Shown here in pieces: positions 2,827 through 7,241 of a stretch of 38,355 bases of DNA. The notes beneath the pieces are model-generated. The model did not search any database, was not told the origin of the DNA, and saw nothing but the letters and a program-made list of their open reading frames with translations. A program made the position numbers and the translations under genes. Numbering within the stretch: the first letter of the stretch is position 1; every line of letters begins with the position of its first letter. This stretch comes from Desulfobacula sp. (GTDB lineage: Bacteria > Desulfobacterota > Desulfobacteria > Desulfobacterales > Desulfobacteraceae), in the NCBI RefSeq assembly GCF_014237455.1, contig NZ_JABZFL010000087.1:1-38355 (forward strand), read 5' to 3'.

Positions 2827-4041
2827 ATGAATTTGTTTGCTATATTGTCAAATATCGGACTGCCGGATATTCTTGATATTTTGTTTATTTCCATTGTTTC
2901 CTATCAGCTCTATATCTGGTTCTGGGGCACCAAAGCCTTTAAAGCCCTGATTGGTATTATTCTTTTAAGCGGGGTTTTCATTGTGGCCAAATCCTGGGGA
3001 CTTTTTTTAACCACCTGGGTGTTTCAAATTTTGTGGCAGGTCTTTGTGATTCTTTTGATTATCCTTTTTCAAAGAGAAATCAGGCAAATGCTTGAGCGGT
3101 TTAACCCCCTGAAAACCATAGGTTTTAAATATAAATCAGCAGCTGATGGCTGGGTTCCGCCGTTTGCAGGCTGGGCGTTTGATGTGGCAAAAAAAAGAAT
3201 CGGTGCGCTCATTGTTTTTGAAAGAATAGATCTTGTATTTGATTTGATCACAAAAGGGATTTCCATGGAATGCGATCCTCAGCCTGAAATATTGGACTCT
3301 ATTTTTTATAAAGAATCTCCTCTGCATGACGGGGCTATCCTTGTTTCCAAAGGGAAAATTTTAAAAACATCCTGCTATCTGCCCTTATCTGCAAGAGAAG
3401 ATCTGCCACAGGAATGGGGAACCAGGCACAGGGCCGCTTTAGGGCTGACAGAACAATGCGATGCCTGGGTGATGATTATTTCAGAGGAAAGAGGGGAAGT
3501 TTCCTTTGCTGTTGATAATGATATTCGAAAAGTAAATGATGAAAAGGAGCTGGCCGCTCTTCTTGAGGACGCGGCCTTTGACTTTAAAGAGACAGATACG
3601 GATATTAAAAAGAAGATAAAATCCTGGTTTACCAGGCGGTATAAAATTAAAACAATAGTTTTGGCCCTGGTTTTTATTATGTGGCTGCTTTTTGCAGGGC
3701 AGCAAAATTTTGAAAAGAAAATCAACCTGCCGCTTAACTTCAGGAATACTCCGGCAGGGCTCATGGTATCTCAGCCGATTGATCCAAAAATTTCTATTAT
3801 CTGTCGCGGACTTAGAAAAGATGTCAGCCTGTTGGACGAAAACAATATCATCACTTCTATTGATTTGTTTTCAGCAAGGCCCGGAACATCCTTTTACAAT
3901 ATTACCACAGGGAATTTAACACTGCCCAATGACAGAGTTCATATTGTACATATCACCCCGGCAAGGATTGAGTTGACACTTGGAAAGAGGCCAAAACCAG
4001 ATCAGGAAGACAAGCCTTCCATAGAAAGTGAGCTTTATTAG
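2827..4041 (+). CDS. cdaA: Diadenylate cyclase CdaA fused to a YbbR (CdaR-like) domain
   Basis: A 404-residue protein that should make c-di-AMP from two ATP at the membrane. Residues 1-80 carry about three hydrophobic helices as in CdaA/YbbP, followed by LLIILFQREIRQMLERF. The DAC domain shows the catalytic motifs DGA (168-170) and RHR (200-202). After an ordinary CdaA-length region (~265 residues) comes a charged linker, a fourth membrane helix (274-291) and about 100 residues resembling one YbbR repeat (297-388), including PLNFRNTPAG and ITPARIELTLGKR. In Firmicutes YbbR repeats sit on the separate regulator CdaR, encoded next to cdaA and glmM. Here the cyclase and one repeat are in one chain and no glmM follows. 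SD GGAGAAAGG lies 8 bases before the ATG. Assignment of the cyclase is firm; the YbbR call rests on pattern and position. Confidence 0.9.
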   Translation: MNLFAILSNIGLPDILDILFISIVSYQLYIWFWGTKAFKALIGIILLSGVFIVAKSWGLFLTTWVFQILWQVFVILLIILFQREIRQMLERFNPLKTIGFKYKSAADGWVPPFAGWAFDVAKKRIGALIVFERIDLVFDLITKGISMECDPQPEILDSIFYKESPLHDGAILVSKGKILKTSCYLPLSAREDLPQEWGTRHRAALGLTEQCDAWVMIISEERGEVSFAVDNDIRKVNDEKELAALLEDAAFDFKETDTDIKKKIKSWFTRRYKIKTIVLALVFIMWLLFAGQQNFEKKINLPLNFRNTPAGLMVSQPIDPKISIICRGLRKDVSLLDENNIITSIDLFSARPGTSFYNITTGNLTLPNDRVHIVHITPARIELTLGKRPKPDQEDKPSIESELY

Positions 4042-4054
4042 GGTCCTTTTGTTT

Positions 4055-4495
4055 TTATCTGTGGAAAATGTTTAGACTGCAGGGCAGGGTCAGTATGTAT
4101 GCTTTGATCTCATCCCTGATTTTTCTGTAGCAATCAAGTTTTTCTTCACGAGTTTCATATTGTTTTGCCATTTCAGGAGGATCATCAAATCCCACATGAA
4201 TGATCTTACTGCCGCCGGGGAATCTGGGACATGTTTCATGGGCATGACCGCATACCGTGATGACATAGTCAAAAGGTTTATTTTTAAATTTATTCAAGTG
4301 TTGGGCTTTTCCGTCTGTTATATCAACGCCTGCCTCAGCCATAACGGTAACCGCATGAGGATCTATCCCTTGGGGGTCAATCCCGGCAGAATAAACATCA
4401 ATAAAATCTTCTTTCAAGTGTCTTGTCCACCCTTCGGCCATCTGGCTTCGGCATGAATTGCCAGTACAAAGAAACAGTATCTTTAATTTGTCCAT
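4055..4495 (-). CDS. arsC: Thioredoxin-dependent arsenate reductase (LMW-PTP fold)
   Basis: A 146-residue protein that reduces arsenate to arsenite with electrons from thioredoxin. The P-loop CTGNSCRS puts the nucleophile at Cys10 and the phosphate-binding Arg at 16. The redox pair Cys82 and Cys89 sits in VCGHAHETC. These are the same positions as in the well-studied Staphylococcus aureus enzyme, and FDDPP (103-107) carries the general acid. It is the last gene of the HMA-hgcA-hgcB-arsC run, 55 bases after the true hgcB stop, with no terminator visible in that gap, so co-transcription is likely. No arsB/acr3 or arsR gene is visible in this window. The gene converges on cdaA with a 13-base gap. 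Confidence 0.93.
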   Translation of the reverse strand: MDKLKILFLCTGNSCRSQMAEGWTRHLKEDFIDVYSAGIDPQGIDPHAVTVMAEAGVDITDGKAQHLNKFKNKPFDYVITVCGHAHETCPRFPGGSKIIHVGFDDPPEMAKQYETREEKLDCYRKIRDEIKAYILTLPCSLNIFHR

Positions 4496-4550
4496 TATTT
4501 TTTAAAATCGTATCATAAAGAGAAAAAGAGCTATCGTTTCATACTGGCGC

Positions 4551-4841
4551 TCAACAACACTCGCCACTGCCACAGGAGGCGTTTTCTTTTCCTTTTATCC
4601 AGACCTGGATAATATAGGCGGCTCAGCCGACACCCGGACTGACGGATATGGCCTCTGAAGGACAATTGTTAACACAGGCACCACATTCCATGCAGGCATT
4701 AAAATCAACAATTTGGGCTTTGTTCTGCTTCATTTCAAAAACCGCTTGAGGACAGACTTCGGTACACAAGCTGCAGCCGATACATTTTTCTTCATCAAGT
4801 ACCAGGCTCGATACATCATCTAAATATTTTAATTTTTCCAT
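4551..4841 (-). CDS. hgcB: HgcB mercury-methylation ferredoxin, predicted selenoprotein (in-frame UGA at codon 73)
   Basis: HgcB is the 2x[4Fe-4S] ferredoxin that works with HgcA in methylmercury formation. The first 72 codons encode two cluster motifs, C20-x2-C23-x2-C26-x3-C30 and C50-x2-C53-x2-C56-x3-C60, the second in the HgcB signature CMECGAC. A UGA at 4623-4625 would end the protein after SPGVG. The same frame continues AAYIIQVWIKGKENAS and then CGSGECC, ending at a UGA at 4551-4553. This gives 96 residues, close to the usual ~95, with the typical C-terminal vicinal cysteines (95-96). Codon 73 is where HgcB carries its strictly conserved Cys after PGVG, so selenocysteine there is a like-for-like replacement. 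A SECIS-like hairpin follows immediately. A standard gene caller would truncate this gene at 4623. An AAGGA ribosome site precedes the ATG, and hgcA ends 22 bases upstream. Confidence 0.88.
4591..4625 (-). promoter_or_regulatory. Bacterial SECIS element directing Sec insertion in hgcB
   Basis: Reading the minus strand, the UGA (4625-4623) is followed after 17 bases by GGTC (4605-4602). This tetraloop caps a perfect 7-bp stem, TTATCCA (4612-4606) with TGGATAA (4601-4595). Beyond a short internal loop, CCT (4618-4616) can pair with AGG (4593-4591). The apical sequence AGGTCT is identical to that of the E. coli fdhF SECIS, where the GGUC begins 18 bases after the UGA and binds SelB. Distance, loop sequence and position inside the coding frame all fit a bacterial SECIS. 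A bulged U like that of fdhF is not obvious, except possibly in the lower internal loop. Confidence 0.85.
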
Positions 4842-4863
4842 ATTTAAATCCTTCGACTTTAGG

Positions 4864-6006
4864 TCAAAATGCAGAATATATCCAGAGCCCGGATGAAATC
4901 ACAAGGCTTGCCAATTGCACAGGGAGGTACCGTTTCATTTCTTTTTCAACCCCTGAGGGCGACGTAAACGGTGTTGCTCCGGTAAAATTCATAGCCAGAT
5001 AAGAACTGATGGTCACACTGAATAAAAAAAGTGCCAGCAATCCTGCAAACCCGCTAACGACAAACGATATTATAGTCATCAGGGGTATGGCAAAAATACT
5101 TCCGGTAATGATTCCCTTGAGAGCAAATTCCCTGGAGGGGATAAAAGGAAGCAGGATCGGGGTAACAAAGGCACCTGAAAATATTCCTGCCGCAAGGGCA
5201 AAAACAGAAATCATCCCTCTTTCCCAGGCCCCTGGAAAAGAAAAAATATCCGGTCCAAAACCGGAAATAATGAACAGAATAAGTGCTGTGATCAGGGCTG
5301 GTTTCAGCACGATTTGAATTTCTACAGGTGTCAGGATGAACCGTTCATACAGCTCAAAGGAGACCTGTCTCATCTTTTTATCCGCTTTTCTGTTATTTTT
5401 TAGAAAAATTGGGATATCCTTGGCCCGTATCGGACCATACACCACCCTGAATCCGGACTGCTTTTTGACATCTCTTGCTGATACGCCTGTCGCTCCCAGT
5501 TGAGGAACAATGACCCGTTTATGATCCACGATTTTTTCAAGGGAGCAGTCTTTAATCTTTTTCACAAGTTCCCGGGTTGAAAAGGTTCCCTTCCCTGCCG
5601 CGCACCAGACATTGATCCCTTTTGTATCCAGTACCAGAATCCATGCATTGATATCACTCAGTTCCTTTCGCAAATGATCAAACGTCAATTTAAAATTTGC
5701 AGTAACAAGAACCTCACAATTTTTGTCTGGTTTTCCGATGGCGTAAAGACCGGGAGCCACTGTATAAGTATGCCGACGGATGCCGCACCTTACATAAAAG
5801 GTTGAGAAAAGGTCTTTTTTTTCAAGCGTTGATTTGATGATGGGAATAACCCCGGCATTGGTTTTAATAAATCTGTCCACATAGGCGCACAGTTTAAACC
5901 CTGGTTTCTCATAATCGACCATGGGGTTGGATCGCTCAGTCGAGCTGTGTAAAGAGACTTCATCCATGGAGGACAGGAGATTAACGCCGGAGGTTGATAT
6001 TTTCAT
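4864..6006 (-). CDS. hgcA: HgcA corrinoid mercury methyltransferase
   Basis: A 380-residue membrane protein whose corrinoid domain donates a methyl group to Hg(II). The diagnostic cap-helix motif NVWCAAGK is at 132-139, with Cys135 as the proposed cobalt ligand. The N-terminal half (about 36-205) resembles the corrinoid-binding domain of the CO dehydrogenase/acetyl-CoA synthase corrinoid protein. The C-terminal half has about five hydrophobic helices (near 229-249, 264-288, 294-316, 318-340, 361-379) and the conserved NFTGATPFTSPSGVEKE (340-356). The N-terminus is some 40 residues longer than in the best-known HgcA proteins; an internal start such as Met30 is possible. The ATG overlaps the stop of the upstream HMA gene by 4 bases (ATGA), and hgcB follows after 22 bases. 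NVWCAAGK is essentially unique to HgcA, so the call is strong. Confidence 0.97.
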   Translation of the reverse strand: MKISTSGVNLLSSMDEVSLHSSTERSNPMVDYEKPGFKLCAYVDRFIKTNAGVIPIIKSTLEKKDLFSTFYVRCGIRRHTYTVAPGLYAIGKPDKNCEVLVTANFKLTFDHLRKELSDINAWILVLDTKGINVWCAAGKGTFSTRELVKKIKDCSLEKIVDHKRVIVPQLGATGVSARDVKKQSGFRVVYGPIRAKDIPIFLKNNRKADKKMRQVSFELYERFILTPVEIQIVLKPALITALILFIISGFGPDIFSFPGAWERGMISVFALAAGIFSGAFVTPILLPFIPSREFALKGIITGSIFAIPLMTIISFVVSGFAGLLALFLFSVTISSYLAMNFTGATPFTSPSGVEKEMKRYLPVQLASLVISSGLWIYSAF

Positions 6007-6209
6007 GCCCTGTATCCGGCCTTATTTATTTCTTTAATCGCTTTATCAACAAGTTCTGAATTATCAGTATCAAAAGATGCCTTTTTTGCATTAAGATCAA
6101 CAGATACATTGGAAATGCCTTCTATCTGTTCAAGGGTCCTTTGGACCGTTCCCGAGCAATGGCTACAGCTCATACCTTCTACATTCAGGGTTGCTTTTCG
6201 TGAAGCCAT
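6003..6209 (-). CDS. HMA-domain small metal-binding protein, coupled to hgcA
   Basis: A 68-residue single HMA domain of the CopZ/MerP fold without a signal peptide, so it is expected in the cytoplasm. The metal site is GMSCSHC (Cys15 and Cys18). The rest follows the beta-alpha-beta-beta-alpha-beta pattern, ending IKEINKAGYRA. Such proteins bind soft metals (Cu(I), Hg(II), Zn(II)) and hand them to partner proteins. It is the first gene of the hgcA operon, its stop overlapping the hgcA start by 4 bases. A role in mercury delivery to HgcA/HgcB or in metal buffering is inference; a copper chaperone is the default alternative. A clear AGGAG ribosome site lies 8 bases before the ATG. Confidence 0.88.
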   Translation of the reverse strand: MASRKATLNVEGMSCSHCSGTVQRTLEQIEGISNVSVDLNAKKASFDTDNSELVDKAIKEINKAGYRA

Positions 6210-6267
6210 GTTTAACTCTCCTTTTAAAAAGTTAAAATCGATTTCAGTTGAATCATACCATATAAGT

Positions 6268-6297
6268 GTATAATAATGATCAAAAAATTTTCGTCAA
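6268..6297 (-). promoter_or_regulatory. Candidate sigma70-type promoter of the HMA-hgcA-hgcB-arsC operon
   Basis: On the minus strand TTGACG (6297-6292) and TTATAC (6273-6268) are separated by 18 bases, about 60 bases before the HMA gene start. An imperfect AT-rich dyad (ATCAT and ATGAT arms, 6252-6280) overlaps the -10 region and could be an operator for an ArsR/SmtB-type repressor. That operator is speculation from symmetry only. Confidence 0.45.
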
Positions 6298-6328
6298 CAT
6301 GTCGGCAATACGTTACCGGCGGTGATAT

Positions 6329-6886
6329 TTGATAAAGGGAAACATATCGGAAATGAAAGGTCATGCCAATATTCCCTGGTGTTCTGCTGAAGAATGGAAC
6401 CAGGTTATTTTATCCATAAAAAGAATTGACAGGTTGTATGAGGGCAAACTTGACAGGGTCTATGATACGGCAATAAAGATCAGACAGAAATTTGAAGAAC
6501 TGTCAGAGCCGATAGAAAAGATTTGTTCACATACCTGTGTGTATTGTGAGGATGTCTGCTGTGTAAGAGCAACCATATGGTATGATTTTAAAGATTTACT
6601 TTATATTTATTTTGGTCTAAATACGTTTCCTGAATCACAAATAATAAAAAAAATAGAGGGAAACCGGCAACGGAGTTGTTGGCATTTTTCTGAAAAAGGG
6701 TGTATGCTTTCAAGGATTGAACGTCCTTTTGTCTGTATCTGGTATTTTTGTTCTGTTCAGAAAAAATATCTGGTGCTTCATCATCATAAAATAAAGGAAA
6801 GTATTGATAAGCTCTTGATAGATATCAAAGACCTTCGTAATAAAATGGAAGAAGAATTTATTCGGGTATCATGCCCAAATCTATAA
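6329..6886 (+). CDS. Cysteine-rich protein, CxxCxxCC/YkgJ-like
   Basis: A 185-residue soluble protein of unknown function, rich in cysteines. C66-x3-C70-x2-C73-x3-C77-C78 forms the main cluster, followed by C117, C125, C136 and C141. The arrangement is like the YkgJ/CxxCxxCC group, which is thought to bind zinc or an Fe-S cluster; family membership is tentative. It is divergent from the hgc operon and shares its ~120-base upstream region, so common control is possible but unproven. The start is ambiguous. A TTG at 6329 has a good GGCGGTGAT ribosome site at proper distance, while an ATG at 6353 lacks a well-spaced one. Confidence 0.65.
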   Translation: MIKGNISEMKGHANIPWCSAEEWNQVILSIKRIDRLYEGKLDRVYDTAIKIRQKFEELSEPIEKICSHTCVYCEDVCCVRATIWYDFKDLLYIYFGLNTFPESQIIKKIEGNRQRSCWHFSEKGCMLSRIERPFVCIWYFCSVQKKYLVLHHHKIKESIDKLLIDIKDLRNKMEEEFIRVSCPNL

Positions 6887-6926
6887 ATTTGATATGATAC
6901 CGATTTTAAAAATGAAAAGTTGAAGG

Positions 6927-7241
6927 ATGGTTGACTTGAAAGAATTAAAAGGATCACAAAAAAAGTATTTACGGGGGCTTGCCCACAATCTGAACCCGTC
7001 TGCTTTTGTCGGTCAGAAAGGGATTACCGACATGCTTATCGGAGAGATTGATCAGGCCCTTGAAGCAGCAGAGCTGATCAAGGTGAAATTTAATGATTAT
7101 AAAGAAAAAGATCAGAAAAATGTTTTGACAAAGGAGATTGCCAAAGCCACCCGATCCCATATAGCCGGCATGATAGGGCACGTGATTATTTTGTACCGTC
7201 CGCATAAAGATGTGGAAAAACAACAGATCAGATTGCCTTAA
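6927..7241 (+). CDS. yhbY: YhbY family RNA-binding protein (ribosome assembly)
   Basis: A CRS1-YhbY (CRM) domain protein of about 100 residues that binds pre-50S particles and assists large-subunit assembly. The typical N-terminal helix GSQKKYLRGLAHNLNP (9-24), the FVGQKGIT loop (27-34, GxxG-like) and the C-terminal GHVIILYRP (84-92) are all present. Length is normal. The ATG at 6927 has its AAGGA almost touching it. A TTG at 6936, 8 bases after AAGGA, is a better-spaced start and gives a 101-residue protein. The end overlaps the converging hydrolase gene by 4 bases. Confidence 0.9.
   Translation: MVDLKELKGSQKKYLRGLAHNLNPSAFVGQKGITDMLIGEIDQALEAAELIKVKFNDYKEKDQKNVLTKEIAKATRSHIAGMIGHVIILYRPHKDVEKQQIRLP

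Follow-up and report, generated by a model that had tools for sequence, protein, structure and literature searches.

The hgcB gene of a Desulfobacula-like bacterium, found in a 38,355-nucleotide stretch of DNA that we call the window, is very probably a genuine selenoprotein gene: comparative sequence data suggest that a hairpin acting with SelB inserts selenocysteine (Sec) at UGA codon 73, that UGA codon 97 terminates translation, and that the resulting 96-residue HgcB works with HgcA. The original prediction held that no Sec form of HgcB had been described, which was wrong, as two papers (PMC13188914 and PMC11588087) credit one to Haft & Gwadz 2023. In its table, a 2026 review lists "Mercury methylation ferredoxin HgcB" (NF040864, motif GVGU, WP_250697400.1) and gives as its source reference 63, Haft & Gwadz 2023, J Bacteriol 205:e0025922 (PMC13188914); PMC11588087 cites the same work for the statement that there may be selenoproteins among the homologues of hgcA and hgcB. 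In the portion of PMC10349881 available to us, UGA appears in a reference only. As far as these citing papers go, Sec-HgcB as such was already reported in 2023; here every hgcB gene detected in the family has this form, accompanied by a conserved RNA hairpin.

The reading frame and the selenocysteine machinery

Under translation table 11, hgcB ends at 72 amino acids. The minus-strand frame consists of 72 codons, UGA-73 and 23 more codons ending in GSGECC before the terminator UGA, confirming the predicted single UGA followed by an HgcB-like tail with vicinal cysteines 95 and 96; the plus-strand frame at 4551-4841 encodes no HgcB. With the first UGA read as Sec, the product is MEKL...SPGVG-U-AAYIIQVWIKGKENASCGSGECC, 96 residues followed by UGA (Table 1). 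The comparison with HgcB proteins that had been proposed gave a match of 122.7 bits to NF040864 (curated cut-off 99, U read as C), residues 5-96 aligning with positions 1-93 of 93 and thus with the full profile. The eight cluster cysteines (20, 23, 26, 30, 50, 53, 56 and 60) are invariant in a 41-row alignment, and the tail carries C90 and the vicinal C95-C96. The gene accordingly shows the marks of HgcB: two CxxCxxCxxxCP motifs, residue 73 after GVG, C-terminal cysteines and an adjacent hgcA. Nine other UGA-interrupted frames occur in the window, one being merely the end of the gene for a heavy-metal-associated (HMA) protein.

Table 1. Features of the hgcAB region, in window coordinates
Feature	Position	Strand	Details
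hgcB	4841-4551	minus	predicted 96-residue selenoprotein ferredoxin, Sec73; UGA terminator 4553-4551
Predicted Sec codon UGA, codon 73	4625-4623	minus	context GVG-U
Bacterial SECIS-type hairpin (candidate)	4612-4595	minus	7-bp stem TTATCCA/TGGATAA, loop GGUC
GAAGGA, likely hgcB ribosome binding site	4849-4854	minus	read from sequence
hgcA	4864-6006	minus	380 aa, NVWCAAGKG motif; NF040863 432.9 bits, cut-off 275
Heavy-metal-associated MerP/CopZ-like protein (CSHC)	6003-6209	minus	68 aa; PF00403 57.7 bits, cut-off 24.8
ArsC-like arsenate reductase (LMWPc)	4055-4495	minus	directly downstream of hgcB

The genome that carries the window (3.48 Mb in 113 contigs, 97.79% complete) was searched for the Sec genes, as the original prediction had suggested, and all four were found over their cut-offs: selA (596.9 bits, cut-off 267.9), selB (346.1, cut-off 242.25), selD (370.6, cut-off 125; containing one in-frame TGA) and selC (76.5, gathering 47), whose tRNA-Sec has the anticodon TCA.

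Distribution of the UGA codon

We searched 86 genomes of the same family, of which 55 contained HgcB over the cut-off and 31 had none over it. All 55 genes, one per species, have UGA at codon 73, the pattern that the original prediction had proposed to look for. Three of them (G037, G038 and G079) contain further stops in the matched stretch, all in the variable tail. HgcB scored over the cut-off in 115 of 395 genomes drawn across the phylum and in 164 of 389 drawn across the order, family members included, and outside the family most of the HgcB matches among those listed had no internal stop. Position 73 was read in 75 loci outside the family, giving 9 U and 66 C; they are no random sample, as they comprise the top-scoring rows and, of the listed rows, those flagged with stops. 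In 80 loci from named genomes, position 73 was U in 37 and C in 43. This set is the best 80 of 558 relatives of the window's own protein; it is therefore rich in near kin, and it partly repeats genes from the unnamed-genome set. Among its members, Desulfocicer vacuolatum DSM 3385 (locus L092), a named strain in a culture collection, carries the Sec form. After removal of duplicates, 163 distinct hgcB genes remained, 64 with UGA (hereafter Sec genes) and 99 with TGC or TGT (Cys genes) at codon 73.

Some tails are unusual. The loci L211 and L074, identical in gene sequence, carry an additional in-frame UGA in the tail (ASC-UGA-DSGCC), at a position that is Gly in relatives, and the tails of L210/L063 and L214 are of odd composition (ASCCIG*, ACCCN*) and end before the usual C-terminal cysteine pair.

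Across all pairs of the 64 Sec genes, pN/pS was 0.28 upstream of the UGA (66 codons) and 0.09 downstream of it (16 codons). The alignment was ungapped, and in its upstream part at least one row, L216, is out of register owing to an insertion. The low value after the UGA indicates selection on the tail at the protein level. The synonymous rate was 0.46 after codon 73 vs. 0.72 before, a reduction that fits constraint by an RNA hairpin.

A conserved hairpin downstream of codon 73

The candidate hairpin starts 10 nt and its loop 17 nt after UGA-73, and a 3-bp lower stem lengthens it to 4618-4591 with a predicted −9.0 kcal/mol. Published criteria for bacterial SECIS elements are a 3-9 nt loop with an early G, a 4-16 bp stem, a distance of 16-37 nt from the UGA and a minimum free energy of at most −7.5 kcal/mol (PMC13188914, section 5); the window hairpin lies inside every range, with its 4-nt loop GGUC, 7 bp, 17 nt and −9.0 kcal/mol. 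On 45 nt, 56 of the 64 Sec genes reach the energy threshold and 8 miss it. In the window itself, the folding minimum is −9.0 kcal/mol after UGA-73 vs. −1.6 after UGA-97. An Rfam scan of positions 3500-7000 gave no SECIS match, its six sub-threshold matches being of no relevance.

All seven stem pairs can form in 64/64 Sec genes vs. 2/99 Cys genes; as the Sec genes are related, these are not 64 independent events. Six of the seven positions are pairable in 29 of the 99 Cys genes and also after the window's UGA-97, and counting pairs below seven is thus a weak criterion for the hairpin. The loop starts with GG in 63/64 Sec genes, and the AGGUCU loop presumably resembles that of E. coli fdhF. The underlying codons, ATT-ATC-CAG-GTN-TGG-ATA, are almost fixed: ATT (Ile77), ATC (Ile78), TGG and ATA (Ile82) are each present in 64/64 Sec genes, CAG in 63/64 and GTN in 62/64. 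In the same genes the codons of Ala74 and Ala88 vary, and Ile codons upstream of codon 73 are spread over 80 ATT, 64 ATC and 56 ATA. Residue 80 is Val in 62/64 and Gly in 2/64 Sec genes, and Val in 7/99 Cys genes; Val80 appears to be dictated by the loop sequence of the hairpin, a possibly new observation.

With 300 synonymous recodings per gene, the mean z was −1.87 for Sec genes vs. −0.29 for Cys genes, and the test was at or under 0.05 in 36/64 vs. 10/99. Taken singly, the hairpin of the window is not significant, because the peptide itself favors it: 12% of its 300 recodings fold equally well, 3,233 of 20,000 recodings keep all seven pairs, and 20 of 200 dinucleotide shuffles are as stable (z −1.17).

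Alternative readings of the UGA

Since the standard-code reading ends at codon 72, UGA-73 could be a genuine stop codon, leaving either a 72-residue ferredoxin or a pseudogene. We consider this very unlikely, given the strong purifying selection on the tail and the UGA in every family HgcB gene. It is also opposed by mutagenesis of HgcB in strain ND132, where Cys73Ala abolished methylation, in line with the original prediction, which called this cysteine important, and loss of both tail cysteines cut methylation by 95% (PMC7305189). The Sec reading is favored because a product made without Sec would lack both position 73 and the tail pair.

That the frame runs on past the UGA would equally be seen if the codon were read as Trp, Gly or Cys through a variant code or unspecific read-through, which we regard as extremely improbable. 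The window's hgcA terminates with UGA, and in 45/64 Sec genes the first stop that follows codon 73 is a UGA (in one of them, L211, the early UGA in the tail), so that the codon serves as a stop elsewhere; moreover, the Sec machinery is complete, and in the 109 of 211 HgcB matches without the UGA the aligned residue is always Cys. The window comes from an assembly in 113 contigs, and a sequencing error or strain mutation of TGC/TGT might be suspected, but the probability of this is negligible, as it is refuted by the same codon in the 55 family genomes and in 9 of the 75 loci of other families. Sec at the Cys73 position, as originally predicted, is strongly supported by the profile match, the sel genes, the UGA throughout the family and the hairpin.

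If UGA-73 is read as Sec, SelB and Sec-tRNA would be recruited by the hairpin just after it, whereas UGA-97, which has no stable hairpin behind it, would terminate translation, and the 96-residue HgcB would partner HgcA in mercury methylation. For the Cys form, the tail pair of HgcB was proposed to deliver Hg(II) to the corrinoid and to hand methylmercury on to Cys73 (PMC7305189). Sec73 may take over this role of Cys73, accepting or relaying Hg(II) or methylmercury on its way between the C-terminal cysteines and the corrinoid, and, on chemical grounds, a selenol(ate) at this position would be expected to bind and exchange Hg(II)/methylmercury faster.

Origin of the Sec form

When the state of the neighboring HgcB (U or C) is mapped on a tree of 156 HgcA proteins, two changes are needed: 60 of the 61 U rows group in a single clade (SH-aLRT 99), within which no Cys row was found, and the remaining one, L228, lies elsewhere. 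A single clade for all 61 Sec rows was not rejected by the AU test (p-AU 0.43), and a single origin therefore stands. As judged from this sample, Sec-HgcB seems to have essentially one origin with no reversal, which is possibly new. L228 has an HgcA and an HgcB body like those of the Cys group and a Sec-type tail with UGA and hairpin. Its identity to the Desulfocicer gene L092 is 94% in the 48 nt downstream of the UGA, 80% in the 30-nt bin that closes with codon 73 and 43-63% in bins further upstream. Its origin by a short gene-conversion transfer of UGA and hairpin is unproven, the AU result allowing one clade.

The N-terminal cysteine pair of HgcA

The N-terminal extension of the window's HgcA has no cysteine before FKLC. 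This terminus was readable in 60 of 62 distinct pairs with Sec-HgcB and in 94 of 98 with Cys-HgcB, the remainder being truncated. A vicinal Cys-Cys or Cys-Sec occurred in 15/60 HgcA proteins beside Sec-HgcB vs. 86/94 beside Cys-HgcB, and Cys-Sec in 0/60 vs. 22/94, 18 of the 22 in the motif CUGP and 4 less sure. Sec-HgcA was thus never seen beside Sec-HgcB in our sample, a possibly new observation (Fisher p 7.6e-6, kinship ignored). In the Sec clade of the tree (60 rows, 14 with the pair), 12 changes of the pair fall on 15.75 length units, compared with 6 on 62.01 in the rest (94 rows, 86 with the pair; binomial p 2.6e-5); start sites were read by the analyst, the regular-expression classification is crude and the parsimony changes include gains. 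Sec-HgcB having essentially one origin, a test for coevolution of HgcB-Sec with the HgcA pair by independent pairs found only two such pairs and had no power. The N-terminal pair appears to be often missing in the Sec-HgcB clade, which is possibly new. A tentative, rather doubtful explanation is that HgcAB keeps its strongest mercury ligand at one of two sites, the Cys-Cys/Cys-Sec of the HgcA tail or Sec73 of HgcB; Sec73, having arisen in the clade ancestor, would have made the HgcA pair dispensable and repeatedly lost, with Sec never at both sites.

Neighboring genes

By its coordinates, the end of the HMA gene overlaps the start of hgcA, and its product is possibly a mercury chaperone. A relative lies <400 nt upstream of hgcA in 6/62 distinct Sec-hgcB loci and 0/98 Cys-hgcB loci, only 31 and 40 of which, respectively, have >500 nt upstream of hgcA. 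Relatives of the ArsC-like gene were found within 700 nt in 5/62 Sec and 3/98 Cys loci (54 and 88 with >700 nt downstream).

Implications and comparison with known systems

HgcAB is required for methylmercury production, and in one bacterial family every HgcB detected appears, from its sequence, to use selenium at residue 73. If so, standard-code reading truncates these proteins at 72 residues, and methylation may depend on selenium supply; a selenium-dependent methylation would connect environmental selenium with microbial mercury methylation in a way that can be tested.

Compared via the citing papers, the window gene and the Sec-HgcB of Haft & Gwadz 2023 are alike in NF040864, GVGU and a single Sec, and no difference was found. 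The accessible parts of PMC13188914 and PMC11588087 make no mention of Sec exclusion between HgcA and HgcB or of a fixed hairpin, a statement that does not extend to Haft & Gwadz 2023 itself. With the Cys-HgcB of ND132 (PMC7305189), the window HgcB shares the dicluster ferredoxin, residue 73, two C-terminal cysteines and the HgcA partner, but differs in its predicted Sec for Cys at 73 and in the SECIS-type hairpin. Position 80 is Val in the window, whereas Thr, Ser or Gly predominate in the Cys forms (79/99). Sec-HgcA, listed in the same review table (motif CU, WP_250697417.1; PMC13188914), resembles the window HgcB in placing selenocysteine in the HgcAB system, but carries it in a Cys-Sec motif at the N terminus (CUGP in most cases) that in our sample occurred only next to Cys-HgcB.
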